A DNA stretch of 64,000 nt from Planctomycetota bacterium (GTDB lineage: Bacteria > Planctomycetota > MHYJ01 > JACQXL01 > JACQZI01): the NCBI GenBank assembly GCA_016207825.1, contig JACQZI010000027.1, positions 62,001-126,000 on the forward strand, given 5' to 3'. The position numbers and the translations under genes were made by a program. Shown in pieces: positions 9,669 to 64,000 of the stretch (positions within the stretch are counted from its first letter, which is position 1; every line of letters begins with the position of its first letter). The notes under the pieces are model-generated. The model did no database searches, was not told where the DNA came from, and saw nothing but the letters and a program-made list of their open reading frames with translations.

Positions 9669-10301
9669 ATGCAATCAGATTACAATGATTTCTGGCAAAA
9701 GCATATTGGAGTAAAAGGCAAGCGTTTCGGCTGGTTCCGCCGCAAGCGCTATGCGGTGCTGGCGAAATTATTTCCGCGTTTCATGCTTAAACGGTTCCCG
9801 GCGCGTAAATACCATCTGGGCGTGGCATCCATATCAGAAGGCGATTTTTGCGATATCGGCTCCGGGCTGGGGGGCGCTACCGCGTTGTATAATGCTTTAA
9901 GTAATAAACCGGCTGTAGGAATTGATATATCTGTTGAGGCGGTTTCATTTGCCCAAAGCGAAAAGAAACGGCTTGGGTTTAAGAAAGTCCGGTTTGCGGT
10001 AAGCGATGTGTTTCGCACGCCTTTTAAGGATAATTCGTTTGATACGGTTTATCTCGGCCAGATTTTGGAACATCTGCCGGATGAGCATAAATCTTTGCGC
10101 GAGGCCTGTCGGATATTAAAACCAAACGGTTTATTAGTGATTACGGTTCCCAAAGAAGATATGCTGCCGAGCCCTTATCATGTTAGGGAGTATACTACAG
10201 ACAGCCTGAAAAACCTGCTTAAGCCTTACAGCAATGAAGAAATCGCTTTTTACGACTTTGACAAAACGCGGTTGGCCGCTTCGCTCAGGATTAAAAAATG
10301 A
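9669..10301 (+). CDS. Class I SAM-dependent methyltransferase
   Basis: 210 residues from the ATG at 9669 (a TTG three codons upstream is less likely). Motif I FCDIGSGLGGATALY, motif II-like GIDISVEAVSFA, and the post-motif block QILEHLPDEHKSLREACRIL followed by NGLLVITVPKED are typical of the Methyltransf_11/25 type. The basic N-terminus (KRFGWFRRKRYAVLAKLFPR) may contact membrane or nucleic acid. The substrate is unknown. It ends in TGA, so TGA is a normal stop here. Confidence 0.8.
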   Translation: MQSDYNDFWQKHIGVKGKRFGWFRRKRYAVLAKLFPRFMLKRFPARKYHLGVASISEGDFCDIGSGLGGATALYNALSNKPAVGIDISVEAVSFAQSEKKRLGFKKVRFAVSDVFRTPFKDNSFDTVYLGQILEHLPDEHKSLREACRILKPNGLLVITVPKEDMLPSPYHVREYTTDSLKNLLKPYSNEEIAFYDFDKTRLAASLRIKK

Positions 10302-10323
10302 CTATGTTTATAAGTTATTTTAT

Positions 10324-10351
10324 TTGACTTACTATGGGAATAACCTAAAAT
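10324..10351 (+). promoter_or_regulatory. Sigma-70-type promoter for the thioredoxin-like gene
   Basis: TTGACT (10324-10329), 16-base spacer, TAAAAT (10346-10351), about 35 bases before the ATG at 10387, with AAAGGAG in between. Confidence 0.55.
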
Positions 10352-10386
10352 CTAAACTCAACATTAAATATGTAAAGGAGATTAAT

Positions 10387-11400
10387 ATGGTGAAGAAAAG
10401 CGTTATCGGCGGAATAATCGCTGCGTTACTAATTTGCGTAACGCAATCCGCGCTTTTTGCCGGAGACGGGTGGCTTACTTCGTTTGATAAAGGCAAGGAA
10501 ATTGCCAAGAAGGAGAAGAAAGACATCATCGTTGATTTTACCGGCTCTGATTGGTGCGGCTGGTGCATCCAGTTGCATGAAGAAGTGTTTTCAACCGATA
10601 AGTGGAAAAAAGAAGGTTCCAAAAAATATGTTATGGTCAGCCTGGATTTCCCCCGCAACAAGCAAATGCCTGAAGATGAAAAGAAAGCTAATGATAAGTT
10701 AATGAAACTGTTCGGTGTAGAAGGCTTCCCGACTATTTTCCTGGTTGATTCGGATGGCAAACCCTATGCCAAGACCGGTTACCAGAAGGGCGGGCCGGAA
10801 AATTATCTCAAGCACTTGGGCGAGCTTTCCAAGCAAAAAGAAACAAGAGATAATATAATGTCCGAAATAAAGAAAGCAGAAAAAGAAGAAAGCCTTAAAT
10901 TGCTGGATGAGCTTATAGGCAAGCTTAAGGAGTGGGGTGTTGATGGGGCTTATGTTGAGACAAAAGAAGAAATTGTCGGCCTGGATTCGGACAATAAAAA
11001 CGGGATGAAACTTAAATATTCCGTAGAACTTACATATTATTACCGCAAAGCAGGGGAACCCGATAAGAGTAATGCGTATCTGAATGAAGTGGAAAAATTA
11101 AGCGAAGGTGAAGCCTCTAGTATAAAAATGGATTTTAAGATAGAGGAAATAGAAGCGAAATACCTCCAAGGGCAGAAACCTGATTTCGAAGGCGCAAAAA
11201 AGGCTTTGAACGAGCTTATTAAAGACAACAAAAAAGGGAAAATTGCGCAAAAGGTTTATTTTGAGATTGCCGGAATAGATTATCAGCTTAAGAATAACGA
11301 AGCGTGCATTAAGGATTTGGAAAACGCCTTAAATGCCGCCCCTGATTCAGAGCTTGCCAGCCAGATTAAAGGTATATTAAAGGAAAAGTTTAATAAATAA
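10387..11400 (+). CDS. Exported thioredoxin-like protein with helical C-terminal repeats
   Basis: 337 residues. The start at 10387 is chosen for AAAGGAG just upstream and because a signal peptide (VKKSVIGGIIAALLICVTQ...ALFAG) begins there. The thioredoxin fold has the active site CGWC (C57-C60) in FTGSDWCGWC and the cis-Pro in GVEGFPTIFL. Residues about 150-337 are helical and TPR-like. It probably acts as a periplasmic thiol oxidoreductase of the thioredoxin_7/DUF255-like type common in planctomycetes. It aligns with the putative CxxU protein at 63307. Confidence 0.8.
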   Translation: MVKKSVIGGIIAALLICVTQSALFAGDGWLTSFDKGKEIAKKEKKDIIVDFTGSDWCGWCIQLHEEVFSTDKWKKEGSKKYVMVSLDFPRNKQMPEDEKKANDKLMKLFGVEGFPTIFLVDSDGKPYAKTGYQKGGPENYLKHLGELSKQKETRDNIMSEIKKAEKEESLKLLDELIGKLKEWGVDGAYVETKEEIVGLDSDNKNGMKLKYSVELTYYYRKAGEPDKSNAYLNEVEKLSEGEASSIKMDFKIEEIEAKYLQGQKPDFEGAKKALNELIKDNKKGKIAQKVYFEIAGIDYQLKNNEACIKDLENALNAAPDSELASQIKGILKEKFNK

Positions 11401-31721: not shown

Positions 31722-32357
31722 ATGAAAAAGCTATTAGCAATGGCGTTGATAACCCTGGTGATAGTGGCAGCCGGTAAACTGACTTGGTTAAGCGGACAGG
31801 CAGCGGAAACCCCGCCGGTTCCGCCCGTGCCGCCGGTTCCCGCGCCAGCCCCGGCCGGGATTAAAATCGGGGTGGTTAATATTTTCGATGTGTTCAGCAA
31901 GTTCAAAAAACGCGATGCTTACCAGAAAGAACTAAGCAAGGAAGAAGCCGAAGAATACAGGAGCTGGAAAAAGGATTACGATGATGTCATAATGGAAAAC
32001 CAGAAGTTGATGGAAGAAAACAACGACCCGAACAGCGATTTATGGGCGACCCTTTCCAGCCGCATAGAAACGCTCAGGATGCAGAAGGAACAGCGCATTA
32101 AGTTGTGGCGTAAACGGATGAACAAGAAAATCAATACCCAGATGGCGCAGCTTTATAATGAAGTCCGTGAAACCATAGATGCTTACGGCAAGGAAAAAGG
32201 TTTTGCGCTGATACTTAAAACAGAACCGGACCGCATCGTGAATTCCAATAACCAGGATGAAGACGCCCAGATGGGGATTAATTTCCGGACGGTTCTTTTC
32301 AGCCAGGGCGCCGTTGATATTACCGCCGATATCATTAAGAAACTTAACGGAGAATGA
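31722..32357 (+). CDS. skp: OmpH/Skp-type periplasmic chaperone
   Basis: 211 residues. Signal peptide, a Pro-rich linker (TPPVPPVPPVPAPAPAG), then the Skp opening IKIGVVNIFDVFSKF and a long charged coiled-coil helix (residues 75-160). The C-terminal strand reads GFALILKTEPDRIV. Skp holds unfolded outer membrane proteins for BamA. The proline linker is longer than usual. AGGAGGAG before the ATG. Confidence 0.85.
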   Translation: MKKLLAMALITLVIVAAGKLTWLSGQAAETPPVPPVPPVPAPAPAGIKIGVVNIFDVFSKFKKRDAYQKELSKEEAEEYRSWKKDYDDVIMENQKLMEENNDPNSDLWATLSSRIETLRMQKEQRIKLWRKRMNKKINTQMAQLYNEVRETIDAYGKEKGFALILKTEPDRIVNSNNQDEDAQMGINFRTVLFSQGAVDITADIIKKLNGE

Positions 32358-59553: not shown

Positions 59554-59604
59554 AGGGCTCACTGCATAGATAATATACATTAGAGAAAATAAGGAGAAAT
59601 CGTG

Positions 59605-60765
59605 ATGAGTAATGTAATTGCGACTAAAAGCGTTCCGGGAATGGAAATGTTTAAGGAATGGTATGAGGCGCGCCATGAATACGCCAAGGAATGGAAGAAG
59701 AACCATCCCAAGGGAAAAGTGATGGGTTATTTCTGCACCTACGTTCCTGAGGAAATTCTTTATGCGGCTGATGTCCTGCCTGTCAGGATTTTAGGCTCGC
59801 ATGAACCGCAGGATGTGACCGAGCCGCATATCTTCGCGATGTATTGCCCTTTCTGCCGGGATTGCCTGGCCCAGGGTTTGAAGAATCGTTACGATTACCT
59901 TGACGGCATCATGATTGCCCAATCGTGCCTCCATATCCGGCAGGCGTTTACCTCGTGGCAGTTGCATATCCCGGTGCCTTACAGTTATTATCTCCCGATG
60001 CCGAATAATCTCCAGACTCCTCACGCGACTCCTTATCTTGCCGGTGAACTGGCCGCATTCAAGAAATCCGTGGAAGAATGGACCGGCAAGAAACTTACGG
60101 ACAAGGATTTGGACAAAGGCATCGAGATAATGAACAGGAACAGGAAATTGCTTAAGCAGATTTATGAGACCAGGAAATTAGAAAATTCTCCGGTTACCGG
60201 TTTGGATGCGATGTATCTGGCGGTTTCCGCGCAGATGGTTGATAAAAACGAGCATTCCCGCGCGATGGAAACGGCATTAAAGAAATTAGCATCTGCCAAA
60301 ACCGAACGCCCGACCGGGACACGGCTGATGATTCTGGGAAGCGAAGATGACGACACGGAATTCGTCAATATGGCTGAATCCTGCGGGGCAACCTTTGTGA
60401 TAGACGACCACTGCACCGGCTCGCGGTATTTCTGGAACGAAGTCACTCCCGGCAGCGACCGTTTGGCGGCAATCGCCAAGCGCTATGTGGAACGTCCGGC
60501 ATGCCCAAGCAAGGACTGGCCCCAGCGGACCCGCCTGGCGCATATAATGAAACTGGCAAAAGACTATAGGGTGCAGGGGGTGATTGTGATACAGCAGAAA
60601 TTCTGCGACCCGCACGAGCTGGATATCCCGGCGATACAAAAGATGTTTAAGCAAAGCAATATCCCCACGCTATTCCTGGAATTCGACGTAAGCGTTCCGG
60701 TGGGCCAGTTCAAGACGCGCGTAGAGGCATTCCTGGAAATGATTCAGCAGGAAGATTTATTCTAA
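59605..60765 (+). CDS. 2-hydroxyacyl-CoA dehydratase family protein (HgdB/BcrC-like)
   Basis: 386 residues from ATG 59605 (AAGGAGAAAT upstream). PVRILGSHEP, MYCPFCRDCLAQGLKNRY, QSCLHIRQAF, and DDHCTGSRYFWNEV fit one subunit of 2-hydroxyacyl-CoA dehydratases or class I benzoyl-CoA reductases, which hold a [4Fe-4S] cluster through three Cys. Such enzymes need a second subunit and an ATP-dependent activator, neither of which is in the window. The substrate is unknown. Confidence 0.85.
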   Translation: MSNVIATKSVPGMEMFKEWYEARHEYAKEWKKNHPKGKVMGYFCTYVPEEILYAADVLPVRILGSHEPQDVTEPHIFAMYCPFCRDCLAQGLKNRYDYLDGIMIAQSCLHIRQAFTSWQLHIPVPYSYYLPMPNNLQTPHATPYLAGELAAFKKSVEEWTGKKLTDKDLDKGIEIMNRNRKLLKQIYETRKLENSPVTGLDAMYLAVSAQMVDKNEHSRAMETALKKLASAKTERPTGTRLMILGSEDDDTEFVNMAESCGATFVIDDHCTGSRYFWNEVTPGSDRLAAIAKRYVERPACPSKDWPQRTRLAHIMKLAKDYRVQGVIVIQQKFCDPHELDIPAIQKMFKQSNIPTLFLEFDVSVPVGQFKTRVEAFLEMIQQEDLF

Positions 60766-63231: not shown

Positions 63232-63306
63232 CTAAAATGAAGCATATATTCGCACGAACCTGAAAATAAGTCTCTGGTTGCTCCGGCGAATAGAGAGGAA
63301 AATGAC

Positions 63307-64000
63307 ATGAAAAAGCATAGTTTTCTGGTGTTGATTTTATTAGGCCTGTTAGCGGCGGTCGTAGTGGCGGATAATGAAAGAGGTAAAGCTAAAATCACAT
63401 GGGAAAAGAATTACGATGTGGCATTGAAAAACGCTCAAACTACGGGTAAACTCGTCCTGGTATTTTCCACCTGCGACTGCTGAGCGGTTCAGCGGGCAGA
63501 AGCAAGCCGTGTGCTTGCGGATGAAACGTTCATAGAGCTTACCCGGCAATTCCACATGGTTAACGGCACCGCCAAAGAAGCGGATAAATTCAAGATGGAC
63601 GAATATACTAAAAAAGGCGGAATGGTGATTGTTGATCCCGATGAGAATGAAATCATCCGCGGGTCTTTTCTCTACCGGAGCCAGGGGCAAGCCGCTCCCG
63701 AAAAAGCGCTGGAAATAATAAATGGCGCCTTAAAAATATATGCTCCCAAAGAAATTGACTGGTTAGATTCGCTTGAAAAAGGAGTAGAACTCGCGAAGGA
63801 TGGTAAAAAACTGTTATTTATCGCCTTTGCCGACGACCAGCAAGATTCGCTGAAAACCCTGAAGGCGCTGGAAAACCCGTTCCTGGTTAAAACCAATGAA
63901 AAATTCGTATTTGTTAAGGTAAAAACGGCAAAAAAACCGGATAAACCTTCCGCTAAAAAGGAAACGGATGAGGAAAAGAAAAAACGTGAAGCCGAGATAG
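63307..64000 (+). CDS. Exported thioredoxin-like protein, putative selenoprotein (CxxU), partial
   Basis: Starts MKKHSFLVLILLGLLAAVVV, a signal peptide, after GAGAGG. Codon 59 is an in-frame TGA in FSTCDC(TGA)AVQRAEA, after which the same frame stays open to the window end (231 codons in all). Aligned to the sister protein at 10387 (active site CGWC), the TGA falls at the second Cys of CxxC, so selenocysteine giving CDCU is plausible. A stem-loop at 63502-63518 fits a bacterial SECIS. The rest has a thioredoxin_7-like pattern (KKGGMVIVDPDENEIIRGSF) and a second related segment. Alternatives are a nonsense mutation or a base error. The 3' end is outside the window. Confidence 0.65.
63502..63518 (+). 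promoter_or_regulatory. Candidate bacterial SECIS hairpin
   Basis: GCAAGC (63502-63507), loop CGTGT, GCTTGC (63513-63518). The loop begins 24 bases after the TGA and has G at its second position, inside the range usually given for bacterial SECIS elements. Confidence 0.5.

Follow-up and report, generated by a model that had tools for sequence, protein, structure and literature searches.

A probable secreted thioredoxin-like selenoprotein from a planctomycete with selenocysteine in the nucleophile column of its active site

The stretch of planctomycete DNA analyzed here (64,000 nucleotides, referred to as the window) ends within a gene containing an in-frame UGA at codon 59 that, on the evidence of sequence comparison, is very probably a selenocysteine (Sec) codon. 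The explanation as a whole, that the gene encodes a secreted two-domain thioredoxin-like selenoprotein with Sec59 (U59) as the nucleophile, is held with high confidence; its part on Cys56 as the resolving residue is somewhat favored. The selenocysteine reading in the original prediction is supported by the Sec machinery of the genome, by recurrence of the TGA in paralogs, by Cys in homologues and by a hairpin downstream of the TGA. The source genome belongs to the Planctomycetota and comprises 2.89 Mb in 42 contigs, with a completeness of 97.6%. The features of the gene are as follows:

63293..63298, + strand: GAGAGG, a Shine-Dalgarno-like motif 8 nt 5' of the ATG at 63307, identified from the sequence
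63307..64000, + strand: selenoprotein gene, residues 1–231 of 303, running beyond the window end (the TAA ends at 64218 in window numbering)
63307..63369, + strand: predicted signal peptide, residues 1–21, with a VVA-D cleavage site assigned by eye and a helix at residues 4–23 in the structure model
63388..63747, + strand: thioredoxin-fold domain 1 (Thioredoxin_7), residues 28–147, from Pfam PF13899 and structure matches
63472..63474, + strand: Cys56, at -3 relative to the Sec, unchanged across the three paralogs and proposed as the resolving thiol
63478..63480, + strand: Cys58, directly before the Sec, replaced by Ala in both paralogs
63481..63483, + strand: TGA read as selenocysteine, residue 59 (U59), in the column of the N-terminal nucleophilic Cys of the thioredoxin CxxC
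63490..63492, + strand: Gln62, the +3 site at which CxxC proteins have the resolving Cys; the motif in the window is U-A-V-Q
63502..63518, + strand: SECIS-type hairpin GCAAGC-CGUGU-GCUUGC, with a 6-bp stem and a 5-nt loop (CGUGU)
63754..64000, + strand: thioredoxin-like domain 2, Cys-free, from residue 150 and extending beyond the window

The gene, its domains and its relatives

The frame that begins at the ATG at 63307 is open for 58 codons ahead of the TGA and for 172 codons behind it within the window, as had been predicted. The residues ending at the TGA read C-D-C-U, and the full protein on the contig is 303 residues long, including the single TGA, with TAA as its stop codon. Domain 1 is a member of the Thioredoxin_7 family (37.7 bits against PF13899, gathering cut-off 27) and returned thioredoxin-fold matches at Z 10–13 in a structural search, in agreement with the fold that had been proposed for it; the proposed signal peptide is likewise supported as a prediction, and the protein is probably secreted. 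The second domain matched Thioredoxin_7 at E 0.008 in the genome search, and the equivalent part of a paralog on contig C10 matched at 5e-13. This C10 paralog additionally features a C-terminal PEBP/YbhB-like domain following its two thioredoxin-like domains (L023:1495-2769).

Contigs C11 and C10 of the source genome each encode a paralog, and both paralogs have a TGA at the identical codon, so the TGA is taken to be more than a chance occurrence. Within this trio, dN is 0.24–0.43 before the TGA and 0.22–0.49 after it, with dS saturated or about 2.9; low dN relative to dS on both sides indicates selection at the protein level before and after the TGA. The gene neighbors of the three paralogs differ and provide no operon clue. 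In a sample of 199 genomes, 20 besides the source genome contain relatives, many of which have one TGA. At the class level, 16 of 23 genomes (own genome included) contain matches at E 1e-5 or better, again many with one TGA, and at the phylum level matches at E 1e-12 are present in 21 of 392 genomes. A first scan of named genomes with the three paralogs as queries returned zero relatives, and a second scan with UGPC relatives as queries returned 80 loci. All 20 aligned relatives, among them Cys proteins of other phyla, have Cys or Sec in the U59 column, so homologues do carry Cys at the TGA position as the original prediction anticipated.

Several further genes were observed alongside this family. 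One relative (L045 of genome G017) contains two in-frame TGAs five codons apart, at residues 60 and 65, in an active-site loop reading STUSTSSU. The window also encodes, at 10234-11400, a Cys counterpart of the Sec proteins of this genome, a Thioredoxin_7 member whose motif is an ordinary WCGWC. The TGA at 32355 of the window is followed by 334 open codons, the second gene being LpxD-like from a reading of its sequence; this TGA was dropped as a Sec codon candidate, as it looks like a stop between two adjacent genes in the same frame.

Selenocysteine machinery and the downstream hairpin

The source genome encodes selB, selA and selD, and the tRNA-Sec gene (selC), with anticodon TCA, adjoins selB. 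All four genes sought for the selenocysteine reading are thus present. An in-frame TGA also occurs in selD, where one is expected (GCVGUAGK), making SelD itself a selenoprotein (L019, G000:C36:1904-2830). Genes resembling subunits of 2-hydroxyacyl-CoA dehydratase, from readings of their sequences, were observed at 59602-60765 of the window and at L176:577-1860, the second of which overlaps the end of selD.

The stem of the SECIS-type hairpin starts 18 nt after the UGA and its loop 24 nt after, and the predicted energy is -8.4 kcal/mol with short flanks and -7.0 for the bare 17 nt. The published model of the bacterial SECIS has a loop of 3–9 nt with a G within the first two loop positions, a stem of 4–16 bp, a UGA-to-loop distance of 16–37 nt and an energy of at most -7.5 kcal/mol (PMC13188914). 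The window hairpin agrees with all four published criteria, its loop starting with C-G and its energy being that obtained with short flanks, which upholds the hairpin of 6 bp with G in the loop that had been described 24 bases downstream. The window gene and the C11 paralog are 66% identical in DNA; their longest run without a mismatch is 21 nt, extends from +17 to +37 and spans the hairpin, the next longest being 14 nt. The hairpin of the C10 paralog exhibits one compensatory change, from an A-U pair to C-G. Covariation within the trio of this genome alone was not significant (154/500 shuffles), nor was the window gene hairpin alone when compared with synonymous re-coding (p 0.105).

Across the family, a fixed pairing register in 32 TGA genes performed only slightly better than neighboring registers, because the positions of stem and loop differ between genes, and a synonymous-codon energy test was used for the hairpin in place of the fixed-register test. 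Across 31 TGA genes, the stretch following the TGA folds better than expected from synonymous re-coding, with a mean z of -2.1, compared with -0.14 for control windows of the same genes and +0.23 for the corresponding position in 25 homologues that lack the TGA. Four further TGA genes gave a mean z of only -0.84. The Mann-Whitney p of 4e-12 for hairpin energy overstates the evidence, as the sequences are related. Altogether, this hairpin tends to be present in family members with the TGA, and it is absent from homologues that lack the TGA. The Rfam SECIS_1 model (RF00031) had no match here and none in any control genome, and is therefore uninformative.

Two alternative readings of the TGA were weighed against selenocysteine. 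If it were a real stop, the gene would be broken, its sequence would contain an error, or a short product would be made and translation re-initiated at the GTG at 63511; standard ORF calling does give a 235-residue ORF from this GTG. Such a stop would have to account for the TGA recurring at this codon in both paralogs as well as in other genomes, for selection on both sides of it, for the hairpin and for the Sec machinery, and it is regarded as very improbable; recurrence in paralogs and other genomes also speaks against the sequencing error that the original prediction had raised. Decoding of the TGA as another amino acid, through a changed code or a suppressor tRNA, would be consistent with the frame being open across the TGA and is the least credible of the readings, as TGA is an ordinary stop in the window just as had been claimed: it terminates 8 of the 49 long ORFs, with no more than 17 open codons following apart from one pair of adjacent genes. 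The presence of tRNA-Sec and SelB favors Sec decoding over other readings of the TGA, and Cys or Sec occupies the column in 20/20 aligned relatives.

Active site and proposed mechanism

In the alignment with the 20 relatives, the Sec column corresponds to the invariant first Cys of CxxC. U59 pairs with the first active-site residue of WUGPC and WCGWC proteins, and the same is true of the planctomycete relatives with UGPC and UPPC. The structure model covers the 231 residues inside the window (pLDDT 82.7) and predicts a strand at residues 49–54 and the active-site helix at residues 60–71, with U59 immediately before the helix. The alignment and the model both place U59 at the N-terminal nucleophilic position of the thioredoxin active site, as expected for the N-terminus of this helix. 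The original prediction had placed the TGA at the second Cys of CxxC, which is not borne out given that U59 lies in the first-Cys column and the +3 Cys is missing. Its CxxU motif holds as a spacing, C-x-x-U being conserved in the trio, but not as an ordinary CxxC with the second Cys replaced.

At +3 one paralog has Gln and the other Glu, and the classical second active-site Cys is missing. The C-x-x-U spacing of the trio is conserved owing to an extra Cys at -3. The only Cys residues of the window protein are C56 and C58. In the C11 paralog one Cys belongs to the signal peptide, which leaves C56 as the sole Cys in the rest of the protein and makes C56 and U59 the likely redox pair. In sister members, the nearest Cys is at -1 or farther, not at -3. 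The members without the +3 Cys split from the UxxC members in the phylogenetic tree with a branch support of 98/99, and their side of the tree includes two proteins of another family of the class, with Cys at or beside the Sec column. The cis-proline position (GYPTV in relatives; window 63613-63624, residues 103–106) is apparently Gly in two of the trio and Cys in the third.

Other assignments of the redox residues were considered. Were the Sec to replace the second Cys of a normal CxxC, C56 would be the nucleophile and U59 the resolving residue, which suits the C-x-x-U spacing conserved in the three paralogs. This assignment is improbable, since U59 sits in the invariant first-Cys column directly before helix 60–71, and the C-VP-U-VP-C motif of Trx7/PDZ proteins shows that a Cys at -3 is extra to the normal motif. 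A one-selenol enzyme is a more serious possibility, though still doubtful: U59 would have no internal resolver and would form a mixed bond with an external thiol, as in monothiol thioredoxin-fold proteins, leaving C56 in a structural role. Loss of the +3 Cys across the clade and the distance of the nearest Cys in sister members are compatible with it; the invariance of C56 in the trio and the lack of any other Cys beyond the signal peptide of the C11 paralog argue against it.

In the favored explanation, SelB and tRNA-Sec would decode the UGA at codon 59, aided by the hairpin 18–35 nt downstream, and the Sec, which stands at the N-terminal end of the active-site helix in place of the first CxxC Cys of ordinary relatives, would act as the nucleophile. 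The selenol may attack a disulfide, a peroxide or a similar substrate outside the cytoplasm, after which C56 would resolve the reaction by forming a selenenylsulfide with U59; re-reduction might come from a donor of the DsbD/CcdA type or a thioredoxin-like one, the donor being a guess. Two DsbD_TM genes are present in the genome and are a possible electron route for the selenoprotein; a short way downstream of one of them, its contig has a weak match to Thioredoxin_7. The mechanism and electron donor, taken on their own, are somewhat favored.

The chances are about even that the family represents an undescribed clade within one class of the Planctomycetota, consisting of secreted tandem-thioredoxin selenoproteins with a Sec nucleophile, in which the resolving Cys has moved from +3 to -3 (-1 in sisters), giving a redox motif in reversed order, with the trio apparently lacking the cis-proline. 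The clade would offer a natural test of a thioredoxin fold with a Sec as attacking residue and the partner thiol before it, and would extend the known range of Sec use in the Planctomycetota by a secreted redox family. Selenoprotein genes are often annotated too short, with the UGA taken as a stop, which would apply to three genes of this genome.

Comparison with known families

In the NCBIfam scans of clade members, no model reached its cut-off. The best structural matches of domain 1 (Z 11–13) are AGR2/AGR3, ERp19, DsbH and DsbD-gamma, which differ in having Cys in place of the Sec and share 12–22% identity over the domain. AGR2 is also without the +3 Cys in the alignment, and in a sequence search of solved structures it matched no better than E 0.017–0.06. 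The VPGUxxT selenoprotein (NF041383) is likewise thioredoxin-like with a Sec and, by its motif name, has no +3 Cys, but the window protein exhibits no significant match to it; a match at E 1.8e-4 was obtained for one clade member out of eight, and the C10 paralog, at 19.6 bits, falls far below the cut-off of 275.

The UxxC selenoproteins of the Planctomycetota (WUGPC / GUPPC; L034, L046) are similar in being two-domain secreted proteins with the same Sec column and a hairpin after the UGA. They differ in that the +3 Cys is present and a -3 Cys usually absent, and they lie on the opposite side of the 98/99 branch.

A 2026 inventory of prokaryotic selenoproteins names the Trx7/PDZ family with CxxU (NF041199) and, in this possibly incomplete inventory, PF13899 is not mentioned outside Trx7/PDZ. 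The Trx7/PDZ (seleno)protein resembles the window protein in its Thioredoxin_7 domain, its Sec at the nucleophile position and its Cys at -3. Trx7/PDZ is common in the phylum, and it is a member from this phylum (L081) that reads C-VP-U-VP-C. The family differs in keeping the +3 Cys (C-x-x-U-x-x-C), in having a PDZ domain and, by its description, in having no second thioredoxin domain. The window protein scores 16.1 bits against NF041199 (curated cut-off 300) and is not a member, and no PDZ domain was found in it by Pfam up to E 1. Judged by these motif comparisons, the -3 Cys has a precedent in Trx7/PDZ, and the window protein is set apart by having it without the +3 Cys and without PDZ.
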